This document shows, in pieces, positions 2,407 through 27,531 of a stretch of 27,531 nucleotides of DNA. The translations under genes were made by a program, and so were the position numbers. The notes under the pieces are model-generated. The model saw only the letters and a list, made by a program, of their open reading frames with translations, was not told the DNA's origin and did no database searches. This DNA is from a virus, in the IMG/VR virus record IMGVR_UViG_3300025141_000590, positions 1-27,531 of that record. One strand, written 5' to 3'. Numbering within the stretch: position 1 is the stretch's first letter; every line of letters begins with the position of its first letter.

Positions 2407-3595
2407 TAAATATAACCCTCTATTTAATTCTGACGCTAGATACTTTATAATTACAGGCGGTAGGGGTTCAGGAAAGTCTTTTGCTGTTACAGTATTTTTA
2501 ACTTTACTTACTATGTCTAAGAACATAAGAGTATTGTTTACAAGATTTACAATGGTATCAGCTCACCTGTCAATTATTCCTGAGTTCTTAGAAAAGATTA
2601 GTCTGTTAGGTTTTGAAAACATCTTTAGTGTAAACAAAGCTGAGGTAGTTAATTTAGGAAACAAGTCAGACATTCTATTTAGAGGTATTAAGACTTCAGC
2701 AGGAAATCAAACAGCAAGTCTAAAGTCATTACAGGGAATAAGCACTTGGGTACTTGATGAAGCCGAGGAACTTATAGACGAGGATATATTTGACACTATT
2801 GATTTAAGTATTAGAGAAAAGGGAATACAGAACAGAATTATACTTATACTAAATCCTGTAACTAAAGAGCATTGGATATATAAAAGGTTCTTTGAGGACA
2901 AAGGAGTTGAAGCAGGTTTTAATGGTGTTAGAGACAATGTATGCTATATCCATAGTACATACCTAGACAATGAAGATAACCTCTCACAGAGCTTCCTAGA
3001 GCGTATTAAGACTATAAAGCATAGAAACTTTAAAAAGTATCAGCATAAAATCTTAGGGGGTTGGTTAGATAAAGCTGAAGGAGTAGTCTTTGAGAATTGG
3101 TCAATAGGTGAATTTAATCCTGATGGCTTACAAACTTCTTGCGGAATGGACTTTGGTTTTAGTGTTGACCCTGATAGTCTTACAGAAGTAGCTATTGATA
3201 AAAGGAAGCGTAAGATATATTTAAAAGAACATATCTACAAGAACGGATTGAAGTCAAACGAATTAGCTAAGATTATTTTAGACAAAGTAGATAATAAACT
3301 TATCATTGCAGACTCAGCAGAACCAAGACTAATTGCAGATCTTAGACATTTAGGAGTAAATATAAAACCTGTAAAAAAAGGAACTATTGAAAGTGGTATT
3401 ACTCGTATGCAAGACTATGAACTTATCATAACTCCTGAAAGCACTAACATAGCTAAAGAATTGAATAACTATATATATGCTGACAAAGGTTCAAAGCTGT
3501 ATGTAGATAACTACAATCACGCAATAGACGGTGTTAGATATAATGTTATTTATCACTTAGATAACCCTAATGCAGGGAAGTATTACGTACAGTAA
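2396..3595 (+). CDS. terL: Terminase large subunit (non-ATG start)
   Basis: ATP-driven DNA-packaging motor and nuclease. Reading back in frame from the first ATG (2513) recovers LFNSDARYFIITGGRGSGKS, containing the Walker A motif GGRGSGKS (about residues 21-28), so the gene must begin upstream. The frame is open back to a TAG at 2387-2389, and the only codons available before the motif are rare starts: CTG 2393, ATA 2396 and CTG 2399. I give 2396, which makes about 399 aa and overlaps the terS stop. Walker B is WVLDEAEE (about 118-125). Likely RNase-H-type nuclease acidic residues are D252, D306 and D378 in MDFGFS, IADSAE and AIDGVRY. It fits the Terminase_3/3C families. Confidence 0.88.
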   Translation: MLSNKYNPLFNSDARYFIITGGRGSGKSFAVTVFLTLLTMSKNIRVLFTRFTMVSAHLSIIPEFLEKISLLGFENIFSVNKAEVVNLGNKSDILFRGIKTSAGNQTASLKSLQGISTWVLDEAEELIDEDIFDTIDLSIREKGIQNRIILILNPVTKEHWIYKRFFEDKGVEAGFNGVRDNVCYIHSTYLDNEDNLSQSFLERIKTIKHRNFKKYQHKILGGWLDKAEGVVFENWSIGEFNPDGLQTSCGMDFGFSVDPDSLTEVAIDKRKRKIYLKEHIYKNGLKSNELAKIILDKVDNKLIIADSAEPRLIADLRHLGVNIKPVKKGTIESGITRMQDYELIITPESTNIAKELNNYIYADKGSKLYVDNYNHAIDGVRYNVIYHLDNPNAGKYYVQ

Positions 3596-3612
3596 ACTAA
3601 AAACAACAAATT

Positions 3613-3623
3613 TCTATTATATA
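3613..3623 (+). promoter_or_regulatory. Candidate late promoter motif, copy B
   Basis: Exact TCTATTATATA, four bases before the ATG at 3628. The wider TTTCTATTATATAACAGA (18 bases) is shared with copy E at 15619-15636. If the TATTATATA part acts as a -10 element, transcription would begin at or just inside the start codon, giving a leaderless mRNA. That is possible but unusual, and it is the copy that fits a simple promoter model least well. Confidence 0.5.
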
Positions 3624-3627
3624 ACAG

Positions 3628-12445: not shown

Positions 12446-12467
12446 AATCAAATTTATTAACTATATA

Positions 12468-12478
12468 TCTATTATATA
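12468..12478 (+). promoter_or_regulatory. Candidate late promoter motif, copy C
   Basis: Exact TCTATTATATA in the 47-base gap between the tape measure gene and the head protease gene, 14 bases before the ATG at 12493. The wider TATCTATTATATAC is shared with copy D. It marks the boundary between the tail and head modules. Confidence 0.55.
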
Positions 12479-12492
12479 CAAAACAGAATACT

Positions 12493-13209
12493 ATGCCACC
12501 ATGCGAAGAATGTGAAAACGGAAAATATAAATGGGGAAAGACAGGAGACTGTCAATACGACTCTATTGCTGAATGTGAAGAAGCGAACAAAGACTATTAC
12601 GAAAAGACTACATCTATTGTTGAGTTAGTAATTTCAGATGATAGTCAAGAACTAGCAATAGACGCTATTAGTCTAGTAACTTCACCTGCAATAGAACAGG
12701 ACTTTGTTTACTTTGGGAAAGAAAAGAATAACTTAACATTTGCTAAAGTAGATGAGGAGAAAAGAATGCTCGTTAGTCCTGCTTTAATTCCAAACAAGCA
12801 AATATTCAGACACGACCCAAATACAGACAGCGACTACTATGTTTACTTCAGTCCTGAGACAGTTAGAAAAGCATCTGAGTTATATTTGAAACATAACAAC
12901 CACCATAAAGCTACATACCAACACCAAGACAGAGTTTCAGGCGTTCTAACAGTTGAAAGTTGGATTAAGGAAGGTGACCAAGATAAGTCTAAGTTATACG
13001 GTTACGATTTACCTAACGGCACTTGGTTTGTAAAAATGAAAATAGAAAATGACGAGCTTTGGAATAAAATCAAAGAAGGTGAACTTAAAGGATTATCAAT
13101 TGAAGGCTACTTTACGGACAAGATGGAACAGATGTCACAAAAAGCACCAACAAACGAGGAAATTCTTTCAGCACTAAATGAAATAATTAAGCAAAATCAA
13201 ACAAAGTAA
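12493..13209 (+). CDS. XkdF-like prohead protease (putative)
   Basis: A 238-residue protein with a Cys-rich start (PPCEECENGKYKWGKTGDC) followed by a domain resembling the XkdF family of putative phage serine proteases. Matching features are the KQIFRHDPNTDSDYYVYFS block at 102-120, a His pair in NNHHKATYQHQ (H137/H138) and the terminal GLSIEGYF with S202, the likely His/Ser catalytic pair. These proteases mature procapsids by cutting scaffold and capsid. Its position directly before a scaffold-like and a capsid gene fits. The Cys-rich N-terminus could bind metal; its role is unknown. Confidence 0.7.
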   Translation: MPPCEECENGKYKWGKTGDCQYDSIAECEEANKDYYEKTTSIVELVISDDSQELAIDAISLVTSPAIEQDFVYFGKEKNNLTFAKVDEEKRMLVSPALIPNKQIFRHDPNTDSDYYVYFSPETVRKASELYLKHNNHHKATYQHQDRVSGVLTVESWIKEGDQDKSKLYGYDLPNGTWFVKMKIENDELWNKIKEGELKGLSIEGYFTDKMEQMSQKAPTNEEILSALNEIIKQNQTK

Positions 13210-13216
13210 TAGTTTA

Positions 13217-13227
13217 TCTATTATATA
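13217..13227 (+). promoter_or_regulatory. Candidate late promoter motif, copy D
   Basis: Exact TCTATTATATA, 31 bases before the ATG of the scaffold gene (13259) and just after the protease stop. An additional start here would let scaffold and capsid be transcribed more strongly than the upstream protease, which matches the stoichiometry a phage needs. Confidence 0.55.
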
Positions 13228-13258
13228 CTACAAACACTAATAAAACTAAAAAGAAATT

Positions 13259-15541: not shown

Positions 15542-15567
15542 TTAGTTTTCTTATATATTCTTGATTG

Positions 15568-15587
15568 AGGGGTGCTAACGCACTCCT
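15568..15587 (+). terminator. Strong Rho-independent terminator
   Basis: AGGGGTGC, loop TAAC, GCACTCCT: an eight-pair stem with one G-U pair, directly followed by TTTTCTTTTT (to 15597). This is the clearest terminator in the genome. It ends the capsid/tail-tube transcript, and motif E begins 24 bases after the T tract. Confidence 0.88.
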
Positions 15588-15620
15588 TTTTCTTTTTAAA
15601 GCAAATAAATTCAAAGTTTT

Positions 15621-15631
15621 TCTATTATATA
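15621..15631 (+). promoter_or_regulatory. Candidate late promoter motif, copy E
   Basis: Exact TCTATTATATA, 15 bases before the ATG at 15647 and right after a strong terminator. A new transcript must start here for the downstream portal and lysis genes to be expressed well, so this copy gives the best positional argument that the motif is a promoter. It shares 18 bases with copy B. Confidence 0.65.
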
Positions 15632-15646
15632 ACAGACAAACTAACT

Positions 15647-16129
15647 ATGATACAAGCAACAACAGTAGATACTATAAATATATATGTGCAAACTGAGGAT
15701 AATCGTATAAATACTTCTGTAGCTTCTACTCAGATAAGACACTTAGTTAAATTCACTAATGACTTAGATAAGTCTGTTTACTATGCTTATGGCAATACTG
15801 AACTTATTAAAGATAGATATACTCAGATTAATATTATTTATAATACTACACCTAATATTTATGAAGGTAAGGCAAAACTATTTCCTGCAGGATATTGGAA
15901 GTACGAAATTTACGAGGTTAGTTGGATAGGAACAGTAACTGTTTCTTCAGGAAACGCACCTGCAACAGAAAATGATGTTTTAAGCCCTGTAGCTGATACT
16001 AAGGGGATAGTACAGGGATTAGTAACTAAGGGTAAAATGAATCTATCAGAAAAAGACGGAACGCAGCAAGTTAGATACAAGCAAAGAGAAGCACCGACAG
16101 AAACAAACTATATATATTACGGACAATAA
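15647..16129 (+). CDS. Hypothetical virion protein, 160 aa
   Basis: I choose ATG 15647 because any longer reading frame would run back through motif E and the terminator. The protein starts with a beta-rich segment (TIQATTVDTI-like opening, then HLVKFTNDLDKSVYYAYG) similar to small virion-associated proteins of flavobacterial phages, and ends with a flexible tail containing many Thr/Tyr residues. There are no enzyme motifs. It lies between the tail tube and LamG-like genes, so a head or tail accessory role is likely. Function is unknown. Confidence 0.6.
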   Translation: MIQATTVDTINIYVQTEDNRINTSVASTQIRHLVKFTNDLDKSVYYAYGNTELIKDRYTQINIIYNTTPNIYEGKAKLFPAGYWKYEIYEVSWIGTVTVSSGNAPATENDVLSPVADTKGIVQGLVTKGKMNLSEKDGTQQVRYKQREAPTETNYIYYGQ

Positions 16130-21604: not shown

Positions 21605-21724
21605 CACTTTTTAACGCTTTTTCAACTAATTTCAATCTTTTTTTAAATTTATTTTAGTATCATTTACTAGATAAGGGATAACTATTTTTAATATTTTTAG
21701 TTAAAAAGTATGTTAAAAGTTTTG
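21598..21724 (+). promoter_or_regulatory. Repeats around the early promoter (candidate operator)
   Basis: The gap holds TTTTAACACTTTTT (21599-21612) and a near-repeat TTTTTAACGCTTTTTC (21608-21623). Further right are GTTAAAAAGT (21700-21709) and GTTAAAAGTT (21712-21721), 12 bases apart, which are close to the inverse complement of the left repeats. The right pair abuts the -33 element of the early promoter, as a regulator site would. A+T richness makes chance matches likely, so this is tentative. There is no gene in 21605-21789. Confidence 0.35.
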
Positions 21725-21751
21725 TCAGTAAGTTTTTTAATTGTACTTTTG
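21721..21751 (+). promoter_or_regulatory. Bacteroidota-type promoter for the early operon
   Basis: TTTG (21721-21724), a 19-base spacer and TACTTTTG (21744-21751) match the established Bacteroidota consensus TTTG/TTG-N(17-23)-TAnnTTTG. It lies 38 bases before the first early gene (ATG 21790) in the longest intergenic gap. It should be read by the host primary sigma factor, so these genes can be expressed immediately after infection. Confidence 0.8.
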
Positions 21752-25305: not shown

Positions 25306-25723
25306 AAGAAAAGCACATAGAGAAAGACAGAACAAAGCTTTAACTCAGTTTTGCAATCACTTTGGTTTAACTTATGGTTCACATCAGGAATATGCTCATA
25401 TTGACGCAGTTCTTTATAACAAAGGAAAGATAACAGGCTTTGCTGAAGTAAAAGGAGTAAATAAGAATATAGAAGACGGACAAGATGTTATAGTAGCAAT
25501 GCGTAAAATAGTAAGAGCTCAACAGCTTCAAGTCAATAGCGGTAAACCTGTAGCAATTATATGGGCTTTTAATAACGCTATTGTCTATGAAAGAATAAAT
25601 AATTTAAAAGGTATTTTCTATTATGGTGGTCGTGCAGTCAGAGAAGGAAGCACCTTTGACCAAGAAATGCTTATAAAAGTATTAATTAAAAACTTAATAA
25701 GAATTGAAGAAGACAGTCAGTAA
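25295..25723 (+). CDS. PD-(D/E)XK nuclease-like protein
   Basis: A 142-residue protein with D37 (HIDAVLYNKGK) followed by E51-V-K53 in FAEVKG, the D...ExK core of PD-(D/E)XK nucleases, and a following helix (VIVAMRKIVRAQQLQVNSG) and strand (PVAIIWAF). It may act as a Holliday-junction resolvase-type enzyme or process DNA for packaging. I prefer ATG 25295 over an in-frame TTG two codons upstream. The stop overlaps the next gene. Confidence 0.65.
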   Translation: MKFERKAHRERQNKALTQFCNHFGLTYGSHQEYAHIDAVLYNKGKITGFAEVKGVNKNIEDGQDVIVAMRKIVRAQQLQVNSGKPVAIIWAFNNAIVYERINNLKGIFYYGGRAVREGSTFDQEMLIKVLIKNLIRIEEDSQ

Positions 25724-26114
25724 ATTAAAAAAAGAACTAGACAAAATCTTTTCAACCTACATTAGATTAAGAGAAGCTAACGAGTACGGAATGTGCCAAT
25801 GCTTCACTTGTGGAGTAGTCAGGCACTACAAAGACGGAATGCAAAACGGACATTTTCAAAGCAGGAAACATTTATCTACACGCTTTGATGAAGAAAATTG
25901 TCAGGTGCAATGTGTTAAGTGTAATGTCTATGCTTGGGGTGAACAGTATAAATTCTCGTTAGCTTTAGATGGAAAGTATGGAGAAGGCAAAGCTGAAGAA
26001 TTACAATACTTAGCTAGAACAACTTTAAAGATTTCTAGGATAGAATATGAAGAAAAGATAAGTTACTACAAATCACTTGTTGATAAGTTAAAAAAAGAAA
26101 AAGGAATTGAGTAA
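25704..26114 (+). CDS. ninG: NinG-like recombination nuclease
   Basis: A 136-residue protein similar to lambda NinG/Rap. Metal-binding Cys C31/C33/C36 (CQCFTC) and C66/C70/C73 (CQVQCVKC) flank MQNGHFQSRKHLSTRFDE with H50 and H56, the zinc-stabilised HNH-type active region. Rap cuts branched DNA in lambda recombination. The start is probably TTG 25704, since no ATG lies before the conserved N-terminal helix; it sits inside the end of the nuclease gene. Confidence 0.85.
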   Translation: MKKTVSKLKKELDKIFSTYIRLREANEYGMCQCFTCGVVRHYKDGMQNGHFQSRKHLSTRFDEENCQVQCVKCNVYAWGEQYKFSLALDGKYGEGKAEELQYLARTTLKISRIEYEEKISYYKSLVDKLKKEKGIE

Positions 26115-26493
26115 ACTTTTTTATTATGTTTGGCGTATGATAGAACCGATTTACGCAAGTGAAGAACACAAGCAAATAATTGAAACCTATATATCTATGT
26201 GTACTGAGTTTGCAAAAGATGTAAGTTCAAAAACAAGATACAATAATTATTTAGATGTTTTAGATGTTATTTTAGAATATCACAACAATTATGGCAAAGG
26301 AGTACGAGAGAATAATTGGTACGATTGGTTAATGATAATACCAACAAATCTTTCAGTTGCTACAAATGGTTTTTTTGCAGGGCTTGAAACTAAAACAAAC
26401 GCATCTGTTATAAGAGCTTATAAAGTTGTACTTAGTGAAATGGTTTTTGATGTAGTAGATAAAATTGACGCTTTAGAACAAATAAATGACTGA
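26107..26493 (+). CDS. Hypothetical helical protein, 128 aa
   Basis: Either TTG 26107 (overlapping the ninG stop) or ATG 26137 (118 aa) begins this gene; the TTG is favoured by the coupling seen elsewhere. The protein is mostly helical (EEHKQIIETYISMCTEFAKDV, YLDVLDVILEYHNNYGKGV) with a middle NNWYDWLMIIPTNLSV. Its stop overlaps the sigma-like gene start by eight bases, so the two are co-expressed. It could regulate that factor, but there is no direct evidence. Confidence 0.55.
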   Translation: MSKLFYYVWRMIEPIYASEEHKQIIETYISMCTEFAKDVSSKTRYNNYLDVLDVILEYHNNYGKGVRENNWYDWLMIIPTNLSVATNGFFAGLETKTNASVIRAYKVVLSEMVFDVVDKIDALEQIND

Positions 26494-27031
26494 GATATAT
26501 GCAGAAATATCTAAGCTAAGTTCATTCTTTAGAAATATGTGTTATGGTATTACGCAAGACGAACAAGCTGTTAATGACGCAGTACAGGAACTTATGCTTT
26601 ACTTCTTACAGATGAACCCTGATACATTAAAAAACATTTATAAAAAAGACGGTATAAAAGGAATTAAAGGTTATGGTGCAGTAGTATTGAGAAGAAGTTT
26701 AACAAGTGTAAGAAGTCCTTTTTATTATAAGTATAATAAATACTACACGCATATAAATAACTATTACGAAACAAATGTTACTCAAGGACACACTAGAAGT
26801 ATATACAATATACCTGAAGTGACAGAAGAATACAAATGGGAAAAGCTAGAAGAAATTGACAAAGTATTAGATAAACAAAGTTGGTATGACAAAAAAGTTT
26901 TTGAGCTATACTACTCAGGAGAAACTTTAGATAGCCTAGCTAAGAAAACAGGAATAAGTAGAAACAGTTTATTTACTACAATAGATAAAGTAAGAGAAAT
27001 ATTAAAAAAAAAATTAAATGAAATTGTATGA
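26486..27031 (+). CDS. Phage sigma-70-like factor (small, ECF-type layout)
   Basis: A 181-residue protein with the two-domain plan of small sigma factors. Residues about 20-80 (QDEQAVNDAVQELMLYFLQMNP, then KGYGAVVLRRSLTSV) resemble sigma region 2, and about 128-178 (WYDKKVFELYYSGETLDSLAKKTGIS, RNSLFTTIDKVREILKKKL) is a region 4-type helix-turn-helix. It would bind host RNA polymerase and redirect it, or act as an activator. It is encoded at the end of the middle operon, the right time to switch on late genes that share the TCTATTATATA motif. Assignment is moderate; the pairing with the motif is inferred. Confidence 0.65.
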   Translation: MTEIYAEISKLSSFFRNMCYGITQDEQAVNDAVQELMLYFLQMNPDTLKNIYKKDGIKGIKGYGAVVLRRSLTSVRSPFYYKYNKYYTHINNYYETNVTQGHTRSIYNIPEVTEEYKWEKLEEIDKVLDKQSWYDKKVFELYYSGETLDSLAKKTGISRNSLFTTIDKVREILKKKLNEIV

Positions 27032-27119
27032 CCCTGATAAGTGTTCTTCTTTTGAAATGATGTTTGGGTTTTCTCAGACAATAATCGTTAAAAAAAGGAA
27101 GAAGAAGAAAAATGAATAA
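27018..27119 (+). CDS. Small basic protein, 33 aa
   Basis: ATG 27018 lies inside the end of the sigma-like gene, and the frame ends at TAA 27119, overlapping the zinc-ribbon gene start at 27112. The product MKLYDPDKCSSFEMMFGFSQ... ends in a Lys/Arg run. It fills the gap exactly and shows two-sided overlap, like other small genes here. Function unknown. Confidence 0.5.
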   Translation: MKLYDPDKCSSFEMMFGFSQTIIVKKRKKKKNE

Positions 27120-27510
27120 GTTTTTTGTACCTAACGAAATTTATGAAGATAGGATTACTATTTGCAAGTCTTGTGTTTATTATTCAAGTATTTTAGGAAA
27201 TTGCACAATTTGTAAATGCTTCATGAAAGTAAAGGCAAGAATAAGCAGTCAACATTGCCCTCAGAAGTATTGGGATAAAACAACAGAAGTAGAAACACCT
27301 GAAAGTTTACCGCAGGAAATAGTAGACGAAATTTTAGATATGTGGAAAGATTTAAAAACAGGTAGAGCAAAAGACCAAGCAGCTAAAAAAAAAATGATTG
27401 AAACATATAATACAATTTTTAATACTAACTACAATGTCAGAACGAATTGTGGTTCTTGTATATCAACTTGCTTTGACGGAATAAAAAAATTATACAATGA
27501 ATACAAATAG
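27112..27510 (+). CDS. Cys-rich zinc-ribbon-like protein, 132 aa
   Basis: The complete copy of the gene cut at the window start. Residues 18-52 hold a multi-Cys block (ICKSCVYYSSILGNCTICKC...HCPQKYW; C18, C21, C31, C34, C36, C49), a 'C..C...G.C..CgC...CP.kkW' pattern found in many phage small proteins that probably bind zinc. A linker helix and a second Cys-rich segment (NCGSCISTCF) near the end follow. It may bind nucleic acid or act as a protein adaptor. It continues directly into the gene numbered 128-325 across the junction. Confidence 0.65.
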   Translation: MNKFFVPNEIYEDRITICKSCVYYSSILGNCTICKCFMKVKARISSQHCPQKYWDKTTEVETPESLPQEIVDEILDMWKDLKTGRAKDQAAKKKMIETYNTIFNTNYNVRTNCGSCISTCFDGIKKLYNEYK

Positions 27511-27531
27511 AACTTACAAAACAATTAAATG
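27370..27531. repeat. Terminal direct repeat (right copy), circular overlap
   Basis: Second copy of the 162-base end repeat. The last 126 bases (27406-27531) are identical to 37-162, and the single difference is at 27405. Joining the ends at this repeat restores two complete genes. Confidence 0.9.
27497..27531 (+). CDS. N-terminal fragment of the 65-aa hypothetical protein (window edge)
   Basis: Repeats the first 11 codons plus two bases of the gene at 128-325, cut by the end of the window. It is the same gene seen through the circular overlap, not a duplication. Confidence 0.85.
   Translation, partial: MNTNRTYKTIK

Follow-up and report, generated by a model that had tools for sequence, protein, structure and literature searches.

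A predicted ECF-architecture σ factor and five putative late promoters in a phage related to the Nonlabens phages P12024S and P12024L

The window, which is the whole stretch of 27,531 nucleotides analysed here (IMG/VR record IMGVR_UViG_3300025141_000590), encodes a 181-aa protein that, as judged from profile matches and a structure model, is a two-domain σ factor of ECF architecture, with region 2, a variable linker, and region 4. This phage σ, a product of the early/middle operon, very probably directs the host core RNA polymerase to five late promoters, all of which precede packaging or morphogenesis genes. The features of the window that are relevant to this reading are listed in Table 1.

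The window is a complete genome with a 162-bp direct end repeat (bases 1–162 versus 27370–27531, 99% identity). The two copies of the repeat are not perfectly identical, and the circularly closed genome is ~27.37 kb. The phage group to which it belongs is marine, very common, and almost uncultured. Its hosts are probably flavobacteria, because of its kinship to phage P12024S and because it has no Shine-Dalgarno-like sequences.

Table 1. Positions of genes, domains, and predicted transcription signals in the window
Feature	Position	Strand	Basis and context
Predicted late promoter 1	2076-2107, core 2094-2104, +1 2107	+	36.3 bits; before presumed small terminase gene 2113/2137 and terL 2513
Predicted late promoter 2	3595-3626, core 3613-3623, +1 3626	+	34.9 bits; before gene 3628
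Predicted late promoter 3	12450-12481, core 12468-12478, +1 12481	+	23.5 bits; before head-maturation-protease-like gene 12493
Predicted late promoter 4	13199-13230, core 13217-13227, +1 13230	+	30.2 bits; before gene 13259 and virion-structural-like gene 13976
Intrinsic terminator	15567-15588	+	9-pair stem, then T-run; directly upstream of late promoter 5
Predicted late promoter 5	15603-15634, core 15621-15631, +1 15634	+	34.5 bits; before 15647-16129, leading to portal gene 17080
Candidate host-type promoter	21722-21751	+	TTG-N19-TACTTTTG; before early operon (21790); fits Bacteroidota housekeeping consensus
NinG/Rap junction endonuclease gene	25704-26114	+	Pfam NinG 1e-15, PHROG 5034; same conserved block as σ
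128-aa protein gene	26107-26493	+	Directly upstream of σ in 218/218 loci; no family match
Predicted σ factor gene	26486-27031	+	ATG start, 181 aa; PHROG 1740; relatives match Pfam Sigma70_r4_2; σ factors found by Foldseek with the AF2 model (PDB, viral structures)
Region-2-like domain	26486-26764, residues 1-93	+	AF2 helices; N-terminal homology to P12024S gp33
Region-4-like domain with helix-turn-helix, TLDSLAKKTGISRNSLFTTIDKVREILKK	26825-27019, residues 114-178	+	Pfam Sigma70_r4_2, PHROG 36 and 1740
DUF6171 protein gene	27112-27510	+	Pfam PF19668 4.5e-7; directly downstream of σ; linkage 219/220

PHROG 1740 ('RNA polymerase sigma factor') matches the protein over residues 9–179 with E = 1.2e-5. 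The same profile matches 30 of the 34 family members, and PHROG 36 matches 31 of them. Pfam Sigma70_r4_2 is found in 19 of the 34 members (E = 2e-5 in the best member). Together, these matches bear out the region-4-like helix-turn-helix of the original prediction. In the comparison with profiles of σ regions 2 and 4 that had been suggested at the same time, the PHROG 1740 match and the region 4 matches of the relatives stand, and the window protein alone stays under the curated Pfam cut-offs (13.5 versus 25.7 bits) and gives no match to Pfam Sigma70_r2; the best Pfam region 2 value among the family members is only 0.03. Searching the PDB by sequence, with the single protein or with a profile, returned just designed coiled coils and chance matches and no σ factor, and fold comparison was therefore needed.

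The AF2 model used for this comparison was built from 49 family members, with pLDDT of 78.7 and pTM of 0.47. An earlier model had a pLDDT of 63, which rose to 78.7 with a more diverse alignment, and gave the same kind of PDB matches. The N-terminal ~80 residues are modelled with pLDDT of ~90, while residues 91–104 are disordered; the linker as a whole (~residues 91–113) is variable in the alignment and of low confidence in the model. The region-2-like domain contains predicted helices at residues 2–9, 12–19, 26–42, 45–73, and 78–93, and an aromatic-rich stretch, SPFYYKYNKYYTHI, follows the helix corresponding to region 2.2. In the region-4-like domain, ISRNS-TIDKVR is nearly invariant.

Foldseek comparison of the modelled protein with the PDB indicates that 50 of the top 50 structures are σ factors or σ-containing complexes, with ECF types first. 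The best match is the ECF σ factor SigL (6dv9_F), with E = 5e-4 and probability of 1.00. The E-values are modest, and the σ matches align over both domains, in agreement with what was originally predicted. Low whole-chain TM-scores would be expected for such a model, in which the relative position of the two domains is uncertain (pTM 0.47). Among viral structures, the best matches that carry a name are ECF/σ70 proteins of phages, including the ECF σ of Cronobacter phage GAP52, a phage akin to phiEco32. The region-2-like nature of the N-terminus is supported by the span of the PHROG 1740 match, by the predicted fold, and by the homology of residues 1–50 to P12024S gp33, a protein that passes the Pfam cut-off for Sigma70_r2. 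ECF σ factors consist of regions 2 and 4 only (PMC6372665). The predicted architecture of the 181-aa protein is that of this group (group 4), without regions 1.1, 1.2, and 3 and with a short linker between regions 2 and 4.

The gene is real and deeply conserved. One scan found relatives of the 181-aa protein in at least 572 IMG/VR stretches; a second IMG/VR query, starting from a subgroup at 55% identity, found 334 relatives, and a third σ subgroup lies near 50% identity. Over 49 proteins down to 48% identity, 26 residues are invariant. Among 50,697 GenBank phage records, tblastn found no match to the window σ at E ≤ 1. The two matches in genome collections, PAPR01000004.1 and PBGL02000003.1, are in MAGs labelled Pseudooceanicola and Euryarchaeota and are most likely mis-binned contigs of the phage group.

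The σ gene is part of a conserved block with the gene order ninG-128aa-sigma-DUF6171, in which its ORF overlaps that of the 128-aa protein by 8 nt. In 211/211 cases in which a 128-aa gene is followed by sufficient sequence, the σ gene lies 3' of it. The overlapping 128-aa gene had been proposed to encode a partner or regulator of σ. This proposal is not supported, and the 128-aa gene was rejected as a specific σ partner, because its adjacency in all 218 loci is matched by the linkage of ninG (188/190) and DUF6171 (219/220) to the σ gene. A cognate anti-σ gene is a frequent, though not invariable, neighbour of ECF σ genes; Pfam and PHROG profile searches gave no match of the 128-aa protein to an anti-σ family. 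The protein could be an anti-σ or a co-factor, although the evidence does not single it out among its neighbours. Three loci in which σ seemed to be lost beside DUF6171 or ninG were also rejected, as they have a longer gap or a changed gene order and their genomes do carry a σ gene.

The putative late promoters share the core TCTATTATATA, of which the window has five copies, each on the + strand (Table 1). With up to one mismatch allowed, there are 12 matches in the window, versus 2.1 expected. Alignment of 79 sites of the group defines an upstream box, AAA(C/T)(A/G)AA, located at −18 to −12 from the first base of the core with fixed spacing. The site is therefore bipartite, with AAA(T/C)nAA at about −31 to −25 and TCTATTATATA at −13 to −3 in fixed register. 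A position matrix was derived from 115 non-redundant sites of other phages, with the window left out of training. Scanning the window with this matrix gave exactly five sites with scores of 23.5–36.3 bits, all on the + strand, and nothing else above 8 bits; there is no matrix site in the early/middle region of the window and about none in order-1 shuffles of it. The late-specific DNA motif of the original prediction is thus real.

A matrix of the same kind found 55 sites in 11 genomes, 4–6 per genome, and 54 of the 55 are on the late strand. Across the relatives, the sites precede orthologues of the presumed small terminase gene 2113, of gene 3628, of the protease-like gene 12493 (PHROG 24921/3017), and of genes 13259 and 15647. 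Several relatives have a further site before a gene with a ...NPRxI N-terminus; the window has no obvious equivalent of this gene. For RAP44, snork6-1, and Harreka_1, which are other Bacteroidota phages, the matrix gave at best 8–10 bits or no score.

We scanned IMG/VR by the motif alone and then searched the whole records for σ. All 19 motif-selected records of at least 25 kb contain σ (one of them cut by the contig end), and 9 of 21 shorter fragments are without it, as expected for fragments. Among long records chosen by σ or portal, the core is present in 30/30 and σ in 29/30. Divergent σ factors, at about 50% identity, have also kept the motif. The exception, G067, has five sites and is without the whole ninG-128aa-sigma-DUF6171 block. 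As a counterexample it decides nothing, because it is a linear contig with two replication-initiator genes that ends next to the expected position of the block. Among the records searched, no relative with the motif demonstrably lacks the gene, as anticipated by the original prediction. A methyltransferase gene is found in G067 where the σ block is expected, and this record may be a mosaic or a chimeric assembly. In four further genomes (G004, G014, G055, and G018), no homologue of the window-type large terminase was found, and σ and the structural genes stay in place.

Within a single phage group, common descent confounds such co-occurrence and could by itself explain it, and an outgroup was therefore needed; the coupling of σ and motif rests on two groups. 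The closest cultured phages are the Nonlabens (Persicivirga) phages P12024S and P12024L (Inhavirus), with a terminase 65% identical to that of the window. In P12024S, the gp33 gene is flanked by a VRR-NUC nuclease gene on one side and by the terminase genes on the other, and its product passes the cut-off of Pfam Sigma70_r2 (PF04542). Both gp33 and P12024L gp35 are annotated only as 'containing Sigma-70 region 2'. A single comparison of gp33 with the N-terminus of the window σ gave E = 3e-5, with ~27% identity over 45 residues; the profile match is weak (E = 1.6e-4 with Prob 50; Prob range 34–50).

P12024S has a bipartite motif of its own, AAAAC-N17-CGTTA, directly before seven ORFs (gp01, gp05, gp08, gp35, gp41, gp44, and gp45), and an ATG is placed at +1 in 7/7 of them, with one site shifted by one base. 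The motif of the window group is absent from the P12024S genome, and the P12024-type motif is absent from the window group. IMG/VR contigs with gp33 relatives at 48–92% identity (L391–L396) have kept AAAAC-N17-CGTTA before the same genes; contig L390 is P12024L-like. The seven sites, which precede positions 179, 3031, 5412, 21280, 23961, 25201, and 26802 (L379), are ECF-type promoter-like and fused to start codons; in P12024S/L they are apparently unannotated, and no published promoter work on P12024S or P12024L was found in the literature searched.

ECF promoters generally contain AAC at −35 and CGT at −10 (PMC4153023), and CGT at −10 is the hallmark of ECF promoters in Flavobacterium psychrophilum (PMC9723704). 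This AAC/CGT signature is present in the P12024 group, whereas the window group has AAAC/T and CGT is replaced by CTA. Specifically, the −10 box is CGTTAATA in P12024S and CTATTATATA in the window group, and the spacer is 17 nt in P12024S and 15 nt in the window group, the upstream box of which is closer. In other respects the two systems are alike: gp33 and the window σ have matching genome positions and N-terminal homology, and both phages have a repeated bipartite motif before late operons with the same placing of +1 and ATG. Two σ types go with two promoter types.

The conservation, the fold, the placing and number of the motif sites, and the pairing of σ and motif types in two phage groups are shown; we infer polymerase binding and promoter recognition by the σ protein, as well as the time of its expression and the leaderless transcripts described below. 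In the proposed order of events, the early operon would be read from host-type promoters, followed by the operon with the replication, nuclease, NinG, 128-aa, and σ genes. The σ protein would then load on the host core RNA polymerase. Region 4 would read AAA(T/C)nAA, the upstream box at about −31 to −25, while region 2 would read and melt the TTCTATTATATA box around −10. The five late operons would thereby be opened, and transcription, until then driven by host-type promoters, would pass to the packaging and morphogenesis genes. A self-contained switch made of a σ factor and a late motif, as originally proposed, is supported by the co-occurrence of gene and motif and by the five late-strand sites.

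Alternatively, the protein might be a σ-derived activator or anti-terminator that works with the host σ instead of replacing it, as PHROG 79 ('anti-termination protein Q-like') and PHROG 36 ('transcriptional regulator') are among the matches of some family members and the region 2 similarity of the window protein is weak by sequence alone. We consider this unlikely, because the model has two complete σ domains with ECF σ factors as best fold matches, because the promoter combines a phage-specific −10 box with an upstream box and is without the TAnnTTTG −7 element of the host, and because the outgroup promoter bears the AAC/CGT signature of ECF σ factors. It is less probable still that the late promoters are read by another factor, such as a host ECF σ, the 128-aa protein, or the DUF6171 protein, and that the σ-like gene serves another purpose, e.g., host shut-off or a small regulon of its own. 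Although the motif is accompanied just as strictly by the 128-aa and DUF6171 genes as by the σ gene, P12024S has a σ in the matching position and a motif of its own, homologues of the 128-aa and DUF6171 genes were not found there, and the type of motif changes with the type of σ.

The start codons behind the sites provide information on the transcription start. In 191 distinct sites, no ATG of a long ORF lies between −22 and +12 of the core. An ATG is located exactly at position 13 in 77 of 177 sites and within 5 nt in 30 more, and in sites without an ATG at position 13 this base is still A in 97 of 117. The simplest reading is that +1 is the A at position 13, which would place CTATTA at −12 to −7. 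Start codons never precede this +1 and are most often exactly there, which implies leaderless late messages; across the group, many late messages would be leaderless or nearly so. In the window, the distances from the predicted +1 to the start codon are 2, 6 or 30, 12, 13, and 29 nt. Because these distances are longer, the late messages of the window itself would be short-leadered, not strictly leaderless.

Leaderless messages account for 5.5% in F. psychrophilum (PMC9723704), and leaders of <10 nt for 3.7% in Bacteroides thetaiotaomicron (PMC7366714). A plausible if tentative reading of the start-codon geometry is that ECF-type σ promoters fused to start codons define a leaderless late regulon, with late messages starting at or within a few bases of AUG. 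If so, the transcription switch would also be a translation switch, in hosts with under about 6% leaderless messages. It is hardly credible that the repeats are a different kind of cis element ahead of the late genes, for example signals for translation start or packaging, since, although many sites directly abut the start codon, their fixed two-box anatomy and the strict lower limit on the distance to the start codon agree with a −35/−10/+1 arrangement, only 4–6 copies are present per genome, at operon heads and not before every gene, and one copy directly follows an intrinsic terminator.

For the early operon, the candidate host-type promoter in Table 1 has a similar site in the relative G060. 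Over the whole window genome, the Bacteroidota housekeeping promoter TTG-N-TAnnTTTG is not clearly above chance, and a generic σ70 promoter scan of the window is not above shuffles. The assignment of 21722–21751 as the host-type promoter of the early operon is a weak one.

Phage σ factors with their own late promoters are already known from T4 (gp55), phiEco32, and 7-11. T4 gp55 is a small late σ that reads an AT-rich −10 box, TATAAATA; it has no region 4 for reading a −35 box and depends on T4 gp33 and the sliding clamp gp45. The window σ is not of this type, as it has a predicted region 4 and a fixed upstream box. The E. coli and Salmonella phages phiEco32 and 7-11 have a phage σ with its own late and middle promoters, which are few, well-conserved sites with the consensus TAATGTATA (PMC4331800). 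They differ from the window phage in their proteobacterial hosts, in having a known anti-σ factor, and in their extended −10 promoter. By tblastn of the phage records, no match of their σ factors to the window protein was obtained at E ≤ 1, and the only similarity is the fold-level match to the GAP52 ECF σ. Host ECF σ factors (SigL, RpoE/σE, and SigW) resemble the window σ in having region 2 and region 4 only and provide its best fold matches. Their AAC/CGT promoter type is common to the P12024 group, whereas the promoter of the window group is without the CGT box; furthermore, the window σ is encoded by a phage gene in a replication/recombination operon, with no anti-σ family match nearby.

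The novel points are a σ family that finds no match by sequence among GenBank phages, the presence of this family in an abundant marine group with kinship to a flavobacterial phage, the comparison of two promoter codes (window group and P12024), and the geometry of the start codons. Early-to-late switches in Bacteroidota phages had been called little described, and nothing on them was found in the literature searched, which also contains no description of a σ/promoter system of the window type. The whole putative regulon, σ and about five promoters, is readable from sequence and could be checked in a cultured relative. Two related σ factors with two promoter codes amount to a natural experiment on σ/promoter co-change, and the window system is a candidate orthogonal σ/promoter pair for flavobacterial genetics. 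For a phylum that does without Shine-Dalgarno sequences, the start-codon geometry leads directly to a prediction of leaderless translation.

The predicted promoters bear on the starts of two genes. With its listed start, GTG 15572, one ORF would begin within the intrinsic terminator and extend through late promoter 5, and its orthologues align from residue 26; its true start is most likely ATG 15647. The gene listed at 2113 (TTG) possibly starts at ATG 2137 instead. The interval from late promoter 1 to the small terminase gene (2107–2140) contains a leader with an inverted repeat, GATTGAATAATCAATC, that is strongly conserved in relatives and is a possible 5' UTR hairpin. In the relative G046, sites at ~8703, 11052, and 11810 of the record have a changed core, TCTCTTATAT, with the upstream box kept, which amounts to within-genome drift of the promoter code.
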